This document shows positions 2,415 to 15,836 of a DNA stretch of 64,000 bases, piece after piece. Source of the DNA: Salarchaeum sp. JOR-1 (lineage in GTDB: Archaea > Halobacteriota > Halobacteria > Halobacteriales > Halobacteriaceae); assembly GCF_007833275.1 (NCBI RefSeq), contig NZ_CP042240.1, forward strand, positions 1 to 64,000, given 5' to 3'. A program made the translations under genes and the position numbers. Positions within the stretch are counted from its first letter, which is position 1. Each line of letters begins with the position of its first letter. The notes beneath the pieces are model-generated. The model was not told where the DNA came from. It worked only from the letters and a program-made list of their open reading frames with translations, and searched no databases.

Positions 2415-4913
2415 ATGCCGTCACGGTATTACGGGGGAGAAACGACCAAAGAACTCCCCGTTAGTCAAGACGATGCCCGTGACAGACTCACTCGCGAAAT
2501 CACGCTCACTGACATCACGACTGACGACGATTCTACGACCGGGACGTACACCGTTGGTCCGCTCACATTCTTCTACGACTGGACGCTTGAACCAGCTTCC
2601 GACGGAACCCTGGTTCGTGAACGCTGGCAGTTCAACACTTGGACGCTCCTTGGATTCTGCAGCCTCTTCCTCCTCCCACTCATACTCGGCCTGCTCTTTC
2701 TGACCCTGACAACAGTCGGAATATACACTCCTTCCTCAGCCCTCTCCCCTGGGAGGATTCAGGGCACTTCCCCGACGGGCCTTCCCATCATCGCGTATTA
2801 TGCGGGTGGCGCGGTCTGTTTCGCACTCATCACCGTCGTCTTCCTCTTTTTCTACCGGGTTAGCAACGCGCCCTCCCCCATCACCAACCTAAAACACGAA
2901 GACGCAGACACACCGCGAACCACCGCCTCCACCGCCACCGGCATCAGCATCCTTCTCGCAGCCATCTACGCCCCACTCACAACCCCCTTCATCATCCTCG
3001 CCACACTCGAGGGCCCAAGCATCATATTCGAGTACGGGACACTCCTCGGCACACTCTACATTCTCTCCAGTCTTGCTGCCCTCGCCCTCCTCCTCTTCCT
3101 CGCCAGAACAAACGCGCTCCACCGTCTGGAATTCACGCACAATCACCTCGACCTCTTCTTCGACACCGACGCTGAACGCGACGATCTCGTCACTCCCTAC
3201 CGATCCGTCGACGCCACCTACACAGTTACCGACACCAACGACCTTCTCACCCGCGTCGCTGACGCAGCAGACTCACTCGACCTCAACATCGAACCCTCCC
3301 CAACCATCGACGAAGACAACCGCATACTCGGTGAAGGCGTACTCTCCCGATTCGGACTTCGCGCACGCTACGAATGGCGCGCCGAACCAATCGGCTGGTC
3401 GGCTGGCGACGTCCGCCAATTCACCGTCAGCGAAACCGTCTATATCGCCCGCGACTACCGCTATTTCTTCTGGCTATTCGGGATGCTCGGCGCTTACACA
3501 CTCCTTCTCTACACGGGTAGCATCCCCGGTCTCAGCTCGTTCGCCGTGCTCTTCGCGCCCAGTCTGTTACTCCCTCTCCTCGCACTCGCACTCTTCGCTC
3601 CACTCCCCGCACTCATCTTCCCCCGCGGACTTGACGAGACAGACACCCATCTCACCATCGCCGAATCGCGCTTTCTCCCCGCCCCACTCCTCACCATCCT
3701 CTACGGACTGTTAACCCTCGGGCTCGCCGCCGTCTACCTCAACACCCACTACGTCGTAAACGCGCTCGCAATCCTGCTTGTCGTAGCGAGCCTCATCGCA
3801 GCCACCTACTACGAGACACTGACATCCTGGTTCGTCAGTGGGATTCCGAGCCTCCAACTCCCCGCAACAATTGAAATCCACGCAACAATCGGTATCGTAT
3901 CGGCGATGCCCGCCATGTTCCTCCTCGCTGGATTCTTCAATTCTGACCCTGCTGCATACCGTCTTGCCGGCGTGCTCTCCCTCGCAGTCACGTGCGTTGC
4001 AGCGTACACGTGTCGGCGTGAGCGGCACCTCGCCATGTCCCGCTTCCGGGACACACTCACAGACCCCCCAACATCCCCTGTCTTCCGCGCAGGCGTCTAC
4101 CTCTTAAGCATCACCGTCGCGGCACTGGGAATCGGCTTACCATTGCTCGCGGCACGCTACGTCTCACAACGACCGGGCGTCAACCTCCCCACCACGCTTC
4201 TCGTCGCATCCGGCGCCCTCTACCTCCTCGCCGGCCTTCTCTACCAAGTCACCTCCGGGATCTGGGGGATCACAACGCTCTTCACCGTCAGCCGCCCCAC
4301 CACACCCGACGCAATCGATCTTCCCGCTGATGTCGCGGACGCACAACTCCGGCTGTATCCCGGCAATGTGAACGCGTTCTTCGCAACATCCACGGGCCGC
4401 ACCGGCTATATCTTCATCCCAGAAATCGCAGTCGAAGAACTCCCTGCCGACCAACTGGCCGCGCTCATTGCCCACGAAGACGCACACGCGTCCAAGTATA
4501 CGGACGGCTGGCTCAGCTTCTACGCCCCCCTCCTCGCCAGTCTCTGCCTCGTCGGCCGGAACGTCCTCTTCACAGCTCTGAACTACTCCGGCCGAGAACT
4601 GCGTGCCGACCGCTACGCAGCTACCAAAACAAGCCCCGACACATTCACCACCGCCTTTCAGAAAATCCGCCAGCTCCGGCTGAATGACCGCCTTTCTGAT
4701 GACGCCCGTGCGGAGCGCGAACGAAATACTCGCCGTGCAGCGGCCGCACTCACTCCACTTCTCCCAGACACAACTTCCCCACCCTCCGTTGGTTCGTGGT
4801 TCGAACTCCTCTACGGCGACTACCACATGGGAAAAGCACATCCAGCACCCGACGAACGCCTCACCCGCCTCCAAGAAGACGATACCAGTGGGGATGATGA
4901 CCTGAGTCGTTAG
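2415..4913 (+). CDS. large membrane protein with M48-type zinc metalloprotease domain
   Basis: The 832-aa product has many membrane segments: one or two near residues 75-105, others near 125-145, 170-250, 350-400 and 415-600. The C-terminal part carries a metalloprotease signature: HEDAH at 687-691 (an HExxH motif) and E728-x3-D732 in ELRADRYAA, as in the M48/HtpX family, where this Glu is the third zinc ligand. The middle contains soluble stretches. M48 enzymes of this class cleave misfolded membrane proteins. The length is about three times that of HtpX (about 290 aa), so most of the protein is an extra membrane module. It is not tightly linked to a neighbour; the next plus-strand gene starts about 780 bp on. 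Confidence 0.75.
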   Translation: MPSRYYGGETTKELPVSQDDARDRLTREITLTDITTDDDSTTGTYTVGPLTFFYDWTLEPASDGTLVRERWQFNTWTLLGFCSLFLLPLILGLLFLTLTTVGIYTPSSALSPGRIQGTSPTGLPIIAYYAGGAVCFALITVVFLFFYRVSNAPSPITNLKHEDADTPRTTASTATGISILLAAIYAPLTTPFIILATLEGPSIIFEYGTLLGTLYILSSLAALALLLFLARTNALHRLEFTHNHLDLFFDTDAERDDLVTPYRSVDATYTVTDTNDLLTRVADAADSLDLNIEPSPTIDEDNRILGEGVLSRFGLRARYEWRAEPIGWSAGDVRQFTVSETVYIARDYRYFFWLFGMLGAYTLLLYTGSIPGLSSFAVLFAPSLLLPLLALALFAPLPALIFPRGLDETDTHLTIAESRFLPAPLLTILYGLLTLGLAAVYLNTHYVVNALAILLVVASLIAATYYETLTSWFVSGIPSLQLPATIEIHATIGIVSAMPAMFLLAGFFNSDPAAYRLAGVLSLAVTCVAAYTCRRERHLAMSRFRDTLTDPPTSPVFRAGVYLLSITVAALGIGLPLLAARYVSQRPGVNLPTTLLVASGALYLLAGLLYQVTSGIWGITTLFTVSRPTTPDAIDLPADVADAQLRLYPGNVNAFFATSTGRTGYIFIPEIAVEELPADQLAALIAHEDAHASKYTDGWLSFYAPLLASLCLVGRNVLFTALNYSGRELRADRYAATKTSPDTFTTAFQKIRQLRLNDRLSDDARAERERNTRRAAAALTPLLPDTTSPPSVGSWFELLYGDYHMGKAHPAPDERLTRLQEDDTSGDDDLSR

Positions 4914-5473
4914 CTGTCCAACCGCGGCACTGGGTACGCGTCGTCGAACTCTTCGCCGTTTGAACTCATGATGTGTTCGAGTTGGCTTCGACGAATCAAG
5001 TAACACGACTTCGTCGCTGTCGGTGTGTCCTCAAGGAACTCTTCTGCAGTGACGAAATGCTTGACTTCTCCCGGTTCAACACGTGCGCGCTCGGGAACGT
5101 GATCGGAGACTGCGGCGTTTCCACCAGCAGACTCCGCAAAGAACATGGAGGGGATTGTCATCCGATAGCCGTCTTCTGGCCCCCGTGAGACGATCTCCCG
5201 TTGCGTTTTGAACCGGTCATCTTGCGCCACACCGTCTTGAACGACTGGTGGGTCATTCGTCAACTCGGAATCAGAGAGAATCAACCACCCCTTCTCACCA
5301 TCAAAACTCCAGTGCCCCGTCACCTTCTCATCCGACGTCTCCAGATCGGCCGGCGGCTGGTCAAGAATCCCCAGCTCGAACACTCGTTGCGGGATCACGA
5401 TCCGACCGACATTATCCCGCGTCACCGTATTCTTCCCGAGGTACTTCCACGTCCGCGTCGTGCCCCAACTCAT
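4910..5473 (-). CDS. hypothetical protein with AbrB-like N-terminal motif
   Basis: ATG 5473 gives a 187-aa protein; an in-frame TTG at 5494 would add 7 residues. Residues about 16-35 (VTRDNVGRIVIPQRVFELG) resemble the swapped-hairpin AbrB/SpoVT motif, in which a short beta segment and a loop bind DNA. The rest is acidic and unrecognised, with two Cys-poor globular stretches. Its 3' end overlaps the 3' end of the M48 gene by 4 bp (convergent). A DNA-binding role is inferred from the motif alone. Confidence 0.55.
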   Translation of the reverse strand: MSWGTTRTWKYLGKNTVTRDNVGRIVIPQRVFELGILDQPPADLETSDEKVTGHWSFDGEKGWLILSDSELTNDPPVVQDGVAQDDRFKTQREIVSRGPEDGYRMTIPSMFFAESAGGNAAVSDHVPERARVEPGEVKHFVTAEEFLEDTPTATKSCYLIRRSQLEHIMSSNGEEFDDAYPVPRLDS

Positions 5474-5697
5474 CCCTTGAGTTACTCCCACCAACCCCCA
5501 TCAATATTGGGGGGCTTGCCACACCCGGGTATCGATTCCACCTGATGGCAACTCCACGGCGGATGCTTTTCACTCCCCCCGATAGGTCAAAACGCGATGT
5601 GCGACCCACTCACTCCCCACGACCGTGCCACCCCCCTCACGAACAGCACACCCAGCCCGACCCCGAACACCCCCGAGTAAACCACGCTCCCAACACA

Positions 5698-6072
5698 ATG
5701 CCCGACACCCTCACCCTCACGATCGCTGCCGCGCTCATCAACCTCCTCGCCGGCGCCGCACTCGTCTGGATCGCCTACAGCGGCCTGGAACGCTCGCCCA
5801 CGCGCGCCATCATCACCACCAGCGTCTTCGCAGCTGCTATCATCACCGGCAACTGGTTCACCGGCAACGCCATCACCTTCCAGACCTGGACGCAATTCGA
5901 AGTCACCACCATCGCCGCGATTATCGGCGCCGCAACCGGGATCAGCGCGGCCCTCCTCACGTGGGAACCCGCACCCGCTCCGAGCACTCCGCCGGTTGAA
6001 GCCGAACAGGCCGCACTGGACGACATGATGCAGAACCGGCACAAAATCCAGGATGCCGGAGGTGACGACTAA
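5698..6072 (+). CDS. small membrane protein, first gene of the AAA cassette
   Basis: The 124-aa product from ATG 5698 has three hydrophobic segments (about 5-26, 38-55 and 69-89). A soluble acidic tail with Pro-rich linker (PAPAPSTPP) and a short helix (EAEQAALDDMMQNRHKIQDA) follows. The stop codon overlaps the start of the coiled-coil gene (TAATG), so the two are translated together. The tail could recruit the coiled-coil protein to the membrane. This role is inferred from the gene order; the family is not recognised. Confidence 0.6.
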   Translation: MPDTLTLTIAAALINLLAGAALVWIAYSGLERSPTRAIITTSVFAAAIITGNWFTGNAITFQTWTQFEVTTIAAIIGAATGISAALLTWEPAPAPSTPPVEAEQAALDDMMQNRHKIQDAGGDD

Positions 6073-6782
6073 TGCCACAGCGTCGCGCCTGGGTCGGCAC
6101 GCTGATCCGGCGTCTCAAACGCTCCGGGAACCCCGAAGCAAAACTCGACGAAATGGTAGAACCCAACGCTGACGTCCTCGGCCTCGGCGTCTCCACAACC
6201 GAGCTCACCAACGCGGTCACCGCAATGCGGGACGACCTCCGGTCGCTCAGCCGGGACATCCGCAAGCACCTCGAGCGCTACCAAGAGTACTTGCAGGCCG
6301 CCGAACAGACCGACGGCATCGACGCAACGGACTACAAAATGGACGCCCAGGCCGAACTGGAGGACGCCCAAGAAAAACGCACTGAGTACGACGCCCTCGC
6401 CAAGAAATACCAGGTGCTTCGGCGCGCCCTGAAGAAATGGGAGCGCGTTCAGCGCCGGAAACAGCGCCAGCGCGAATACGAAGTCGACCTCACCCAGATC
6501 GACATCGATGCAGCCCGCCGTAAAATCGAGGAACTCGAAGAGGAAGGCCAGATAGAGCAGCAAAACGCCGACCGGCTCCGCCGCCAGCTCGACATGCTCG
6601 GCACCACCGCCGAACCCGATCTCGGCGACGTGAACAAAGACCTCGCAGAACTCGAGAAAGACCGCCTCTCCAGCAAACGCGACGACGACTGGGATCTCGA
6701 CACCGTCAGTGACACCGACGACACCACTGACATCGAAGATACGTCCGACCCGCTGACCATGGAAGACCTCCAAGACCTCTAA
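6072..6782 (+). CDS. charged coiled-coil protein, ESCRT-III/PspA-like in layout
   Basis: The 236-aa product has a basic N-terminus (residues 1-17, with RRAWVGTLIRRLKR). Long charged helices follow at about 40-78, 88-135 and 145-176, then an acidic tail (204-236) ending PLTMEDLQDL. No membrane segment or signal is seen. A basic amphipathic start, long helices and an acidic tail with Leu at the end is the layout of ESCRT-III (Snf7/CdvB) proteins. Sequence identity to them is not evident by eye. The gene overlaps the upstream membrane-protein gene and is followed after 69 bp by an AAA ATPase. It could equally be an unrelated coiled-coil scaffold. Confidence 0.6.
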   Translation: MPQRRAWVGTLIRRLKRSGNPEAKLDEMVEPNADVLGLGVSTTELTNAVTAMRDDLRSLSRDIRKHLERYQEYLQAAEQTDGIDATDYKMDAQAELEDAQEKRTEYDALAKKYQVLRRALKKWERVQRRKQRQREYEVDLTQIDIDAARRKIEELEEEGQIEQQNADRLRRQLDMLGTTAEPDLGDVNKDLAELEKDRLSSKRDDDWDLDTVSDTDDTTDIEDTSDPLTMEDLQDL

Positions 6783-6851
6783 CGACCCCCACTTCCCTAC
6801 CACTCCCTCCTCGAGTACAGCACGCTCACCACTTTCTTTCCGTAGCAAATC

Positions 6852-8042
6852 ATGTCCACTGACACCCAGAACACCAACACGAACCCCGCGGACGATGACG
6901 GGTCGCTCGCAGACACCGCGACCACAATCGAAACCCAGATCGACCAAATTGAGGATGTCGAACAGAGCTCGGATCTCGAGGCAACGATCCAGTTCTACGA
7001 ATCCCTGAAACAAAACCTCATCACGATCAAAGACACGGAGGTCGCCACCCCGCACACGGACTCCCGACTCGAATACGTCCGCGACCGCCTAGACGACCTC
7101 TACGACGTTCGTGAAACCGCGCTCAACACCGATACCGACACGGAGGACGACTCCGAGCCATCCAACTCGGACGAGAGCTCCGAGAATGACCCGAGCCCCC
7201 AAACCAACTCAAACACCACGGACGACTCCGCGGACAGTGACACGTCCGGGACGTTCGCGCCGGAAACACCCGAGATAGATTTCTCCGATTACATCGGCCG
7301 CGACGACCTCAAAGAGGATCTTCAGGCACGTGTCCTTGGTCCCTACCGAGACGCCGACCGCATCGAAGAACTTGGCCTTGAGACAACGTCCGGCGTGTTG
7401 CTTTACGGCCCGCCGGGAACCGGAAAGAGCTACGTCGCCCGCGCCCTCGGCGGCGAGGGAGATCTCTCTTACATCGAAGTCAAGATTCCCGACATCAAGG
7501 ATCGGTACGTCGGCGGCTCAGAAGAAAACATCCAGGAACTCTTCGCTACCGCACGGGAACACGCTCCCTGTATTATCTGCATGGATGAAGTCGACGCTCT
7601 CGCTACCAGCCGCGGCGCCGACAACAACTCCACCGGCAAAGACGACATGATCAACACATTCCTTGATGAATTTGAGAAATCCCCCCGCGGCGTCCTCGTG
7701 ATCGGCACTACCAATCGCCGTGACCGCGTTGATGAAGCGTTCGAGCGCGGTGACCGCTTCGAAACCTCGTTCGAAGTCGGGCTCCCCGAACGCGACGATC
7801 GAATCAAACTCCTCAAACACTTCCTCACAACGCCAGTCGATCGTCCACGGAATCCTGGTCTCCGGATCGACATCCTCGCGAACAAAACAGACGGATACAG
7901 TACGAGCAATATCGAACAGCTCGTTAATGAAGCCGCCTGGGATGTCTATCTCAACGACCAGGATCGGCTCTCGATGGAGAACTTTGAGGCTGCGTTTGAC
8001 GCTATCAGTCCCGTTGAGTATTCGAGACCGGGCCGAGACTGA
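6852..8042 (+). CDS. AAA ATPase, Vps4/Cdc48-like, with N-terminal helical domain
   Basis: The 396-aa protein has a helical domain at about residues 22-92 and a disordered acidic linker (93-140). One AAA module (about 144-385) follows, with Walker A GPPGTGKS (186-193), pore loop KDRYVGGSEE (216-225), Walker B CIICMDEVDA (240-249), sensor 1 GTTNRRD (285-291) and arginine finger in ERGDRFE (298-304). The C-terminal lid begins GYSTSNIEQLVNEAA. A single AAA ring with a short N-terminal three-helix-like domain is the layout of Vps4, spastin and katanin, where the N-domain is an MIT fold. The ATPase probably remodels the coiled-coil protein made by the gene before it. Confidence 0.8.
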   Translation: MSTDTQNTNTNPADDDGSLADTATTIETQIDQIEDVEQSSDLEATIQFYESLKQNLITIKDTEVATPHTDSRLEYVRDRLDDLYDVRETALNTDTDTEDDSEPSNSDESSENDPSPQTNSNTTDDSADSDTSGTFAPETPEIDFSDYIGRDDLKEDLQARVLGPYRDADRIEELGLETTSGVLLYGPPGTGKSYVARALGGEGDLSYIEVKIPDIKDRYVGGSEENIQELFATAREHAPCIICMDEVDALATSRGADNNSTGKDDMINTFLDEFEKSPRGVLVIGTTNRRDRVDEAFERGDRFETSFEVGLPERDDRIKLLKHFLTTPVDRPRNPGLRIDILANKTDGYSTSNIEQLVNEAAWDVYLNDQDRLSMENFEAAFDAISPVEYSRPGRD

Positions 8043-13659: not shown

Positions 13660-14967
13660 ATGGAGCTGAAAACACACATCCGAGAACAGCGGTGGACGAC
13701 GGTAGCCGGCTACGGCCTCTTCGTCGCGCTGATGGTCGCCGGCTACTACTATAATATCACGTTCGTCCAACTCGGACTCATCGACCTCGGCACATGCCTC
13801 GTCGGACTGTCCGAGACGGCAGTTTCGATGTGGATGGCGGCGCTCGCGCTCTGCACGCTCGTCGTCGCCGTCGCGACCGGTGTGACAATGGACCGCCGCG
13901 GGTGGAGCACGGACCTCCGCACGAAGCTCCGGCTCCTGCTCGGCGTTGTCTGCGTCCAGTTCGCGCTCACGCTCGTCGCACCGATGATCCGAACCGTGCC
14001 CGCCTTCGGCGCGTGGATTATCATGGCGTCGATCGGGCTCGGGGTCGGCTTCCCGGTCTCGTTCTCGCTCGCGATCGACCTCGTTCCCGTCCCGGACCGG
14101 GGCTACGTCGCCGCGGCGATCACGGCCATCGCGTACTTCCTGGCGAACGCGATTCCGCTCTCCTGGTCGGTCGACGTCTTCAGCAATCTGATGGTCGCCG
14201 TGATGGCGCCGGGCCTCCTCGTGCTGGCCGTCCTGTCGTTCGTCCGCGTCGATCAACTCGACGCGATACTCGACACCCTCGGGACCCAACACGAGACGTA
14301 TGGCACCGGACGGTTCTGTCACGAGGAGCCGGTTCGGACGCGAAGTCTGGCCTTCGTCGTCCCAGTCGTCCTGATGTTCGGCGTGTTCTTCATCGACAGC
14401 CTCGGGTTCCTCCGCATCATCGACACGCCGTCGCTTCTCCTGAGCTCCTGGCAGTCGCCCGCGCTCTCGACGCGCCTGTTCATCGCCGTCGCACACGTCG
14501 TCGGCGCGGTGATGGCCGGCGTTATCTACGCGAACTACTCGCTCTCACGCATCTTCCTCTGGACGTTCGCACTGTTCGCTCTGACGCACGTGATGTACAC
14601 GTCCGACCTCCGGTTCGCTGCAGTGTTCCCCACAATCGCAAGCGACGGCACGTCCATCCTGAACCCCGCCCTGTACGCGATCGCCGTGAGCTTCTACACG
14701 ACGCTGAACTTCGCGCTCTGGCCCGACCTCTCGACGCCCGAGACGATCGGCACGCACGCCGCGATCGGTATCGGCGTCGCCGGCTGGCTCGCCACGTTCT
14801 CCAGCACCGCGCTCGCGCTCTACTTCCAGGCAGTCGACCTCACACTCCTCTCGCACCTGAACGTCGTGCAGGCACTCTCCCTGCTCCTCCTGTTCGGGCT
14901 CGCAGTCGGCCTGTACGCCAGACGGATGGTCGTCCTCGCTCGCGAAAACGGAGGTGCGAGTACATGA
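13660..14967 (+). CDS. MFS-like membrane transporter
   Basis: ATG 13660 (MELKTHIREQRW) is preferred over an in-frame start at 13621 because the extra residues look untypical. The 435-aa protein has about 12 membrane helices, with an interdomain loop near residues 190-235 (DQLDAILDTLGTQHETYGTG) and a TMDRRGW-type loop after helix 2, as in the major facilitator superfamily. Substrate unknown. Its last four bases overlap the start of the polymer-forming protein, so the two are translated as a pair. Confidence 0.65.
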   Translation: MELKTHIREQRWTTVAGYGLFVALMVAGYYYNITFVQLGLIDLGTCLVGLSETAVSMWMAALALCTLVVAVATGVTMDRRGWSTDLRTKLRLLLGVVCVQFALTLVAPMIRTVPAFGAWIIMASIGLGVGFPVSFSLAIDLVPVPDRGYVAAAITAIAYFLANAIPLSWSVDVFSNLMVAVMAPGLLVLAVLSFVRVDQLDAILDTLGTQHETYGTGRFCHEEPVRTRSLAFVVPVVLMFGVFFIDSLGFLRIIDTPSLLLSSWQSPALSTRLFIAVAHVVGAVMAGVIYANYSLSRIFLWTFALFALTHVMYTSDLRFAAVFPTIASDGTSILNPALYAIAVSFYTTLNFALWPDLSTPETIGTHAAIGIGVAGWLATFSSTALALYFQAVDLTLLSHLNVVQALSLLLLFGLAVGLYARRMVVLARENGGAST

Positions 14968-15836
14968 GTCCCACGGAGGCCATCCCACTCCTCATCGTCG
15001 TCCTCCTCGTGATCTCCATCGGGGGCGGTGACGTCGGAGAAATGTCCGTGACCTTCCAGGGCGACAATACCGTCGACTCACTCCCAGACGTCCACGTCGT
15101 CGCCGGCGGGATCACCACAGTCCCTGAAAACGTGACTGTCGACGGTGACATCTACGTGATCGGTGGAACCACGGTCATCGACGGAACAGTCGACGGCGAC
15201 GTCACGGTTCTCAACGGGAATCTCTCGGTACTCGACGGTGCAACCGTGACCGGGACTCTCCAGACGTATTCGGGCTCCACCGCGGTCAGCGATGACGCGT
15301 CAGTCGGGCATATGTCACAGTTCGAAGCCCTCACTCCGTCGAGTTCGCCCGCACAGCGGGTCGGGGGGTTTCTCCTGCAGTTTCTCGTCCTCGGCGCGTT
15401 CGGGTGGTGGCTCGTCGAGCGACACCCCCGCCTCCTTGAGAACGTCGGCGCGGCTATCACCGACCACGCCCTCATCAGCGGTGTCGTCGGCAGTCTCGGT
15501 GCGACGACGCTCCTCGTCCTCTTCGTCTACATGGCGTTCACGCTCATCCTGCTCCCGGTGGCCATCATCGGTCTCTTTGCCGAGTTCCTGGTCATCCTCT
15601 ACGGTCAGGTCGTGTTCGGCTACCTCATCGGGACGTACCTGCCAGTCGAGCGCGATGGCGTCGCAACGGTCGCGGGAATCGTCACGTTGCTGCTCGTCCT
15701 CGAGCTCCTCGGAGTCATCCCGTACCTCGGCGGGATCGTACAACTGACCGTCGCTGTCGTCGGGTTCGGCGCCGTCCTGAACACGTACTTTGGCCTCCAA
15801 CGATTCGAGCCTGTCACCATTCCGGAGGGGACGTAA
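14964..15836 (+). CDS. polymer-forming (bactofilin-like) membrane protein
   Basis: The 290-aa product begins with one hydrophobic helix (6-22) and a beta-helix region (about 45-115). There, repeats of the type VDGDIYVIGGTTVIDGTVDG and GDVTVLNGNLSVLDGATVTG match the right-handed beta-helix of bactofilin-like polymer-forming proteins. Four or five membrane helices follow (about 130-280). The beta-helix probably lies outside the membrane and may assemble into filaments or patches. The gene overlaps the MFS-like transporter by 4 bp. Confidence 0.7.
   Translation: MSPTEAIPLLIVVLLVISIGGGDVGEMSVTFQGDNTVDSLPDVHVVAGGITTVPENVTVDGDIYVIGGTTVIDGTVDGDVTVLNGNLSVLDGATVTGTLQTYSGSTAVSDDASVGHMSQFEALTPSSSPAQRVGGFLLQFLVLGAFGWWLVERHPRLLENVGAAITDHALISGVVGSLGATTLLVLFVYMAFTLILLPVAIIGLFAEFLVILYGQVVFGYLIGTYLPVERDGVATVAGIVTLLLVLELLGVIPYLGGIVQLTVAVVGFGAVLNTYFGLQRFEPVTIPEGT

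Follow-up and report, generated by a model that had tools for sequence, protein, structure and literature searches.

A three-gene cassette of Salarchaeum sp. JOR-1 as a probable reduced, divergent ESCRT-III/Vps4-type module with a proposed membrane anchor

Archaea and human cells use ESCRT machinery to bend and cut membranes. The Cdv system of the Sulfolobales (CdvA/CdvB/CdvC) follows a two-part plan of filament and MIT-AAA ATPase; PspA and Vipp1 share the ESCRT-III-superfamily fold, and we know of no dedicated adjoining Vps4-like ATPase for them. Several archaeal ESCRT clades are described by Makarova et al. 2024 (PMC10936438): the Main clade, in which Halobacteriales are included, combines Vps4 and ESCRT-III with arCOG08177 (carrying an inactivated Cas2-like N-terminus) and arCOG09748, and the Halo_FHA and Halo_adaptin clades contain haloarchaeal pairs of ESCRT-III-like and Vps4-like proteins.

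The three-gene cassette of Salarchaeum sp. JOR-1 analysed here is probably a membrane-remodelling module of the ESCRT-III/Vps4 type, reduced and very strongly diverged, that brings its own membrane anchor and lacks the other ESCRT genes. As in the Main clade (PMC10936438), the putative ESCRT-III-type gene is positioned directly upstream of the putative Vps4-type gene; in contrast to the Main clade, the cassette comprises a small membrane protein and its sequences are far diverged. The pairing of an ESCRT-III-like with a Vps4-like protein is shared with the Halo_FHA and Halo_adaptin clades, whereas no FHA, adaptin-like, CetZ-like or VAT-N domain was seen in the genes of the cassette. The two-part plan also corresponds to that of the Sulfolobales, and the ATPase of one relative spans the CdvC model; unlike in the Cdv system, no CdvA was found adjoining the cassette, Snf7 and MIM1 were not recognised, and the cell possesses tubulin-family genes. 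PspA and Vipp1 appear among the structural matches of the modeled coiled-coil protein but have no sequence match with it. ESCRT-type cassettes are a known kind, of which this would be a reduced form; its function is predicted from sequence and structural models.

The window, i.e. the whole stretch of DNA analysed, comprises bases 1-64000 of a contig of 178,915 bases. This contig, the smaller of the two in the genome (the larger measures 2.34 Mb), is likely to be a plasmid or a second replicon. The open reading frames and their coordinates (Table 1) bear out the preliminary description of three plus-strand genes, the first two overlapping in TAATG (stop codon TAA at 6070-6072, start codon ATG at 6072-6074). 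Likewise present are the features that it had listed for the coiled-coil protein, whose N-terminus is basic (MPQRRAWVGTLIRRLKR), whose helices are long and whose acidic tail terminates in PLTMEDLQDL, and, as confirmed from sequence and Pfam, those of the ATPase, i.e. one AAA module with the pore loop RYVGG, preceded by an N-terminal helical domain and a linker. The AAA module also contains Walker A and Walker B (DEVDAL), its pore loop is aromatic, and the linker is acidic and of low complexity. The 124-aa protein contains two to three hydrophobic helices and an acidic C-terminal tail and is proposed to be the membrane anchor. In the three cassette proteins, Pfam recognised the AAA core only. 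Profiles built without the window sequences (from 12 relatives for the coiled-coil protein, 5 for the membrane protein and 11 for the ATPase) retrieved their counterparts among the 591 ORFs of the window with E values of 1.8e-15, 1.8e-12 and 2.8e-76, respectively, the next-best ORFs reaching 0.75, 0.48 and 1; because these relatives-only profiles pick out all three, the reading frames are more than chance ORFs.

Table 1. Coordinates of the cassette genes and of selected features within the window.
Feature	Position	Strand	Basis
Small membrane protein, 124 aa	5698..6072	+	ORF
Coiled-coil protein P0002, 236 aa, predicted ESCRT-III-like subunit	6072..6782	+	ORF, profile match
Long helical hairpin of P0002, residues 42-136	6195..6479	+	AlphaFold2, Foldseek
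C-terminal PLTMEDLQDL tail of P0002	6750..6779	+	Sequence, motif scan; not MIM1-spaced
Single-AAA ATPase P0003, 396 aa, N-terminal three-helix domain, proposed disassembly motor	6852..8042	+	Pfam AAA 1.6e-34
N-terminal three-helix domain of P0003, residues 16-96, MIT-like position and topology	6897..7139	+	AlphaFold, low confidence
Walker A GPPGTGKS	7407..7430	+	Sequence
Pore loop 1 RYVGG	7503..7517	+	Sequence

Searched alone, P0002 gave only weak, chance-level matches in haloarchaea (394 Halobacteriales genomes) and no relative in plasmids, phages or IMG/VR; further viral scans found nothing. The search with the ATPase turned up a plasmid of Haloplanus on which the three genes stand in the same order (110, 234 and 371 aa), and the 124-aa protein matched the Haloplanus protein P0004 with a BLASTP E value of 7e-6. 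From the Haloplanus set, the family was extended to the genomes G301 and G389, by profile to ten more loci, and to G122, G079, G117 and G411; Halonotius and J07HX64 were added by name. A survey of gene order, set beforehand as one of the tests on which the ESCRT-like reading could fail, found the linkage conserved: the coiled-coil gene is immediately followed by a single-AAA ATPase gene in 15 of the 17 Halobacteriales occurrences at E <= 1e-3 (window, G301, G389, G371, G285, G172 twice, G135, G072, G032, G368, G321, G118, G275, G122, G079 and G117). The two exceptions are G118, with no ATPase within 10 kb, and G275 (L060, 1399-2556), where the coiled-coil relative is fused to an extra C-terminal domain and no ATPase adjoins. 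In Halobacteriales, a membrane gene coding for three helices is often found upstream. Profile searches identified the membrane gene in the window, G301, G389, G371, one of the G172 copies, G072, G122, G411 and J07HX64; G032 has a divergent small membrane ORF at the same position. Taken as a set, the three window genes have homologous counterparts in cassettes of other archaea. The "ATP-binding protein" cassettes of Haloterrigena and Haladaptatus were rejected as relatives, their partners being large membrane proteins unrelated to the coiled-coil family. In the loci L018 (Haloterrigena pHTUR03) and L019 (Haladaptatus), a conjugation-like cassette has a large polytopic protein and, after it, a single-AAA ATPase anchored in the membrane.

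According to the AlphaFold2 model of the 236-aa protein (alignment of 8 sequences; mean pLDDT 64, hairpin mostly 73-95), a long alpha1-alpha2 hairpin (residues 42-79 and 83-136) is followed by shorter helices (145-157, 163-177 and 187-201), a helix order predicted to be ESCRT-III-like; further helices span residues 2-17, 21-29 and 230-235. Among the 50 Foldseek matches listed for this model, 17 were CHMP, Snf7, Asgard or Loki ESCRT-III, PspA or Vipp1 proteins, and those of the hairpin include CHMP1B/IST1, Snf7, Vipp1 and PspA; the top probabilities within the ESCRT-III superfamily were 0.96 (6tz4) and 0.93 (5fd7), all matches having E values of at least 0.33 and none reaching E <= 0.001. Coiled coils are prone to spurious structural matches. 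The Pfam Snf7 model matched neither P0002 nor any other protein of the window's genome, and its best value in the relatives (0.66) is below the cut-off; the same model stays below its cut-off in 14 of 14 control genomes, Sulfolobus included. Neither the PDB profile searches with the coiled-coil alignments nor the single-sequence searches with the coiled-coil protein gave a significant match to a solved ESCRT-III.

The profile comparison points to the methanogen-type ESCRT loci. In HHalign, the family profile (window included) aligned with the methanogen-type coiled-coil profile with a probability of 93.6% (E 2.2e-7, 163 columns) versus 0.4% and 0.1% for two helical control profiles; the best natural PDB match of the methanogen-type profile is CdvB (9s9j), which is co-linear and not significant (E 0.092). 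The genes regarded here as arCOG08177-like and arCOG09748-like were judged from descriptions and not against arCOG, and Pfam recognises neither family. An arCOG08177-like gene is found beside the cassette in G072, G172, G135, one Halonotius locus, G411 and the methanogen-type locus L117, an arCOG09748-like gene in Halonotius and G411. The bridging locus of G411 (L119) comprises the membrane gene, the family coiled-coil gene, the ATPase gene, the arCOG08177-like and arCOG09748-like genes, a second coiled-coil gene (weak, near-full-length Snf7 match of its product, E 0.66) and the start of a second ATPase gene. Homologous coiled-coil and ATPase proteins are common to the cassette and the Main clade; both occur in relatives, among them Halonotius, G411 and the loci of methanogen type. 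In contrast to the Main clade, the two arCOG-like genes are absent from the loci of Haloplanus (35 kb), G301 and G389 (18 kb each), G285 (11.5 kb) and G032 (8 kb), and a profile search found neither in the 64-kb window; in the entire genome to which the window belongs, no arCOG08177-like gene was found (best E 0.03). The main text of PMC10936438 includes no membrane subunit for the Main-clade systems; conserved next to the putative ESCRT-III gene in haloarchaea as well as G411, this subunit would be a candidate for placing ESCRT-III on the membrane.

In the AlphaFold model of the ATPase (mean pLDDT 55), the N-domain helices 16-37, 42-65 and 71-96 are followed by the linker and the AAA module, and by its modeled position and topology an MIT identity of this domain is plausible. 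The N-domains of the relatives reach 1.3e-3 with Pfam MIT, below the cut-off, and match Sulfolobus-type Vps4/MIT chains of the PDB at only 0.2-0.5; residues 11-377 of the G072 ATPase align to the full length of the NCBIfam CdvC model (4e-52). The window's own N-domain was missed by the profile of the relatives' N-domains. Vps4_C had no Pfam match in P0003 and weak matches only in the methanogen-type ATPase (0.028) and the G079 ATPase (0.048); none of the proteins of the window or of the relatives tested passed the cut-offs of Snf7, MIT or Vps4_C. At the position of pore loop 1, the relatives mostly carry SLVGE. The preliminary description had drawn a parallel to the binding of C-terminal ESCRT-III motifs by the MIT domain of Vps4, with the caveat that the tail departs from MIM1 spacing. 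The caveat agrees with the motif scan, by which the window tail was rejected as MIM1 (such spacing occurs in 4 of 17 relatives versus 1.6 expected); the parallel itself is not supported, the tail not being MIM1 and the window N-domain not being recognised as MIT. The comparison with Snf7, PspA and MIT folds that it had recommended yielded the ESCRT-III-like predicted helix order and a predicted three-helix N-domain, with no significant Foldseek E value and no recognition of MIT in the window.

CDC48, FtsH and PAN are at least as close to the AAA core as Vps4 is; the CDC48 and FtsH models score higher than CdvC, and p97, FtsH and Msp1 come first in the Foldseek search with the ATPase model. In a tree that contained no TACK, Asgard or eukaryotic Vps4 sequences, the window ATPase grouped with the cassette ATPases of haloarchaea, with a support of 91/90 that falls short of the starred level; two non-ESCRT ATPases were nested in the same group, and the methanogen-type Vps4s were located elsewhere. 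For the Vps4-like assignment, the partners and the gene order weigh more than the AAA domain. Such affinities of the AAA core, and the M48-type membrane peptidase gene just upstream, would also suit an AAA unfoldase or chaperone that, together with a coiled-coil adaptor and a membrane receptor, serves membrane protein quality control by an FtsH/Msp1-like action without any filament. This explanation is nevertheless unlikely: the ATPase has no protease domain, profile comparison connects the coiled-coil partner to ESCRT loci of the methanogen type, the predicted helix order of this partner is ESCRT-III-like, and the M48 gene was not seen adjoining the cassette in the relatives examined. Of the ESCRT-like module initially suggested, the linkage, the methanogen-type profile links and the predicted helix order stand; a particular closeness of the AAA core to Vps4 does not.

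The cassette is patchily distributed (13 of 394 genomes), and the sequenced genus-mate of Salarchaeum sp. JOR-1 has no detectable copy. This patchiness, the location on the 178,915-base instead of the 2.34-Mb contig, the plasmid-borne copy of Haloplanus and the AAA ATPases encoded by conjugation-like haloarchaeal cassettes are in line with a function for plasmids or mobile elements (partition, conjugation or defence against viruses) exerted by an AAA ATPase and a coiled coil; such a function is nonetheless improbable, since the partner proteins of the conjugation-like cassettes are unrelated, other copies reside on large contigs (G072, G122, G389), and PADLOC gave only generic AAA and coiled-coil matches, for which reason defence was rejected as the best guess. 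That an unrelated coiled-coil protein accompanies the AAA ATPase, its ESCRT likeness being due to convergence or an artefact of the composition of coiled coils, would agree with the missing significant match (single-sequence or profile) to solved ESCRT-III but is very improbable in view of the three-gene co-conservation, the bridging G411 locus with its arCOG08177- and 09748-like genes, and the HHalign result, for which the negative controls remained below 1%.

In the preferred reading as an ESCRT-III/Vps4-type module, the 124-aa protein would be membrane-embedded and perhaps recruit the 236-aa protein; the latter, with a basic N-terminal helix followed by the predicted ESCRT-III-like hairpin, would form polymers at the inner face of the membrane. 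By analogy with Vps4 and CdvC, the N-terminal three-helix domain of the ATPase might bind the acidic C-terminal region of the 236-aa protein, and the pore of the ATPase hexamer would pull in subunits, with the result that the filament is remodelled or disassembled. Given the four FtsZ/CetZ-type tubulin-family genes in the genome of Salarchaeum sp. JOR-1, cell division is unlikely to be the sole role; because of these genes and the genus-mate without a detectable copy, an accessory role, e.g. in forming vesicles or buds or in repairing membranes, appears more likely than division. If this reading is true, 2.3 kb suffice for an ESCRT made up of anchor, filament and motor, and domain searches miss the cassette because of its sequence divergence. 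Haloarchaea, within which this reduction would have been found, are a genetically tractable group, and the cassette would represent a natural minimal system for the reconstitution of membrane remodelling. It is possible, rather than probable, that the cassette is a so far undescribed minimal ESCRT (anchor, ESCRT-III-like protein and Vps4-like motor, free of other partners, borne on accessory replicons and spreading between haloarchaea as a self-contained scission or vesicle unit).

Further observations concern the surroundings of the cassette. In G389, a small protein encoded between the coiled-coil and ATPase genes (L025, 2105-2404) reads like a free-standing three-helix MIT-like domain, with no Pfam match. 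In the window, an 832-aa multi-helix membrane protein with a C-terminal M48 peptidase domain (Pfam 1.4e-5) is encoded just upstream of the cassette (2415-4913, plus strand), and a 680-aa ORF (13794-15836, plus strand) has a weak bactofilin match below the cut-off (E 0.003). Divergent from the cassette lies the gene of a 194-aa protein (4910-5494, minus strand) that by eye resembles an AbrB/SpoVT-type regulator and has no Pfam match; in several relatives, a winged-helix regulator is found at the corresponding position.
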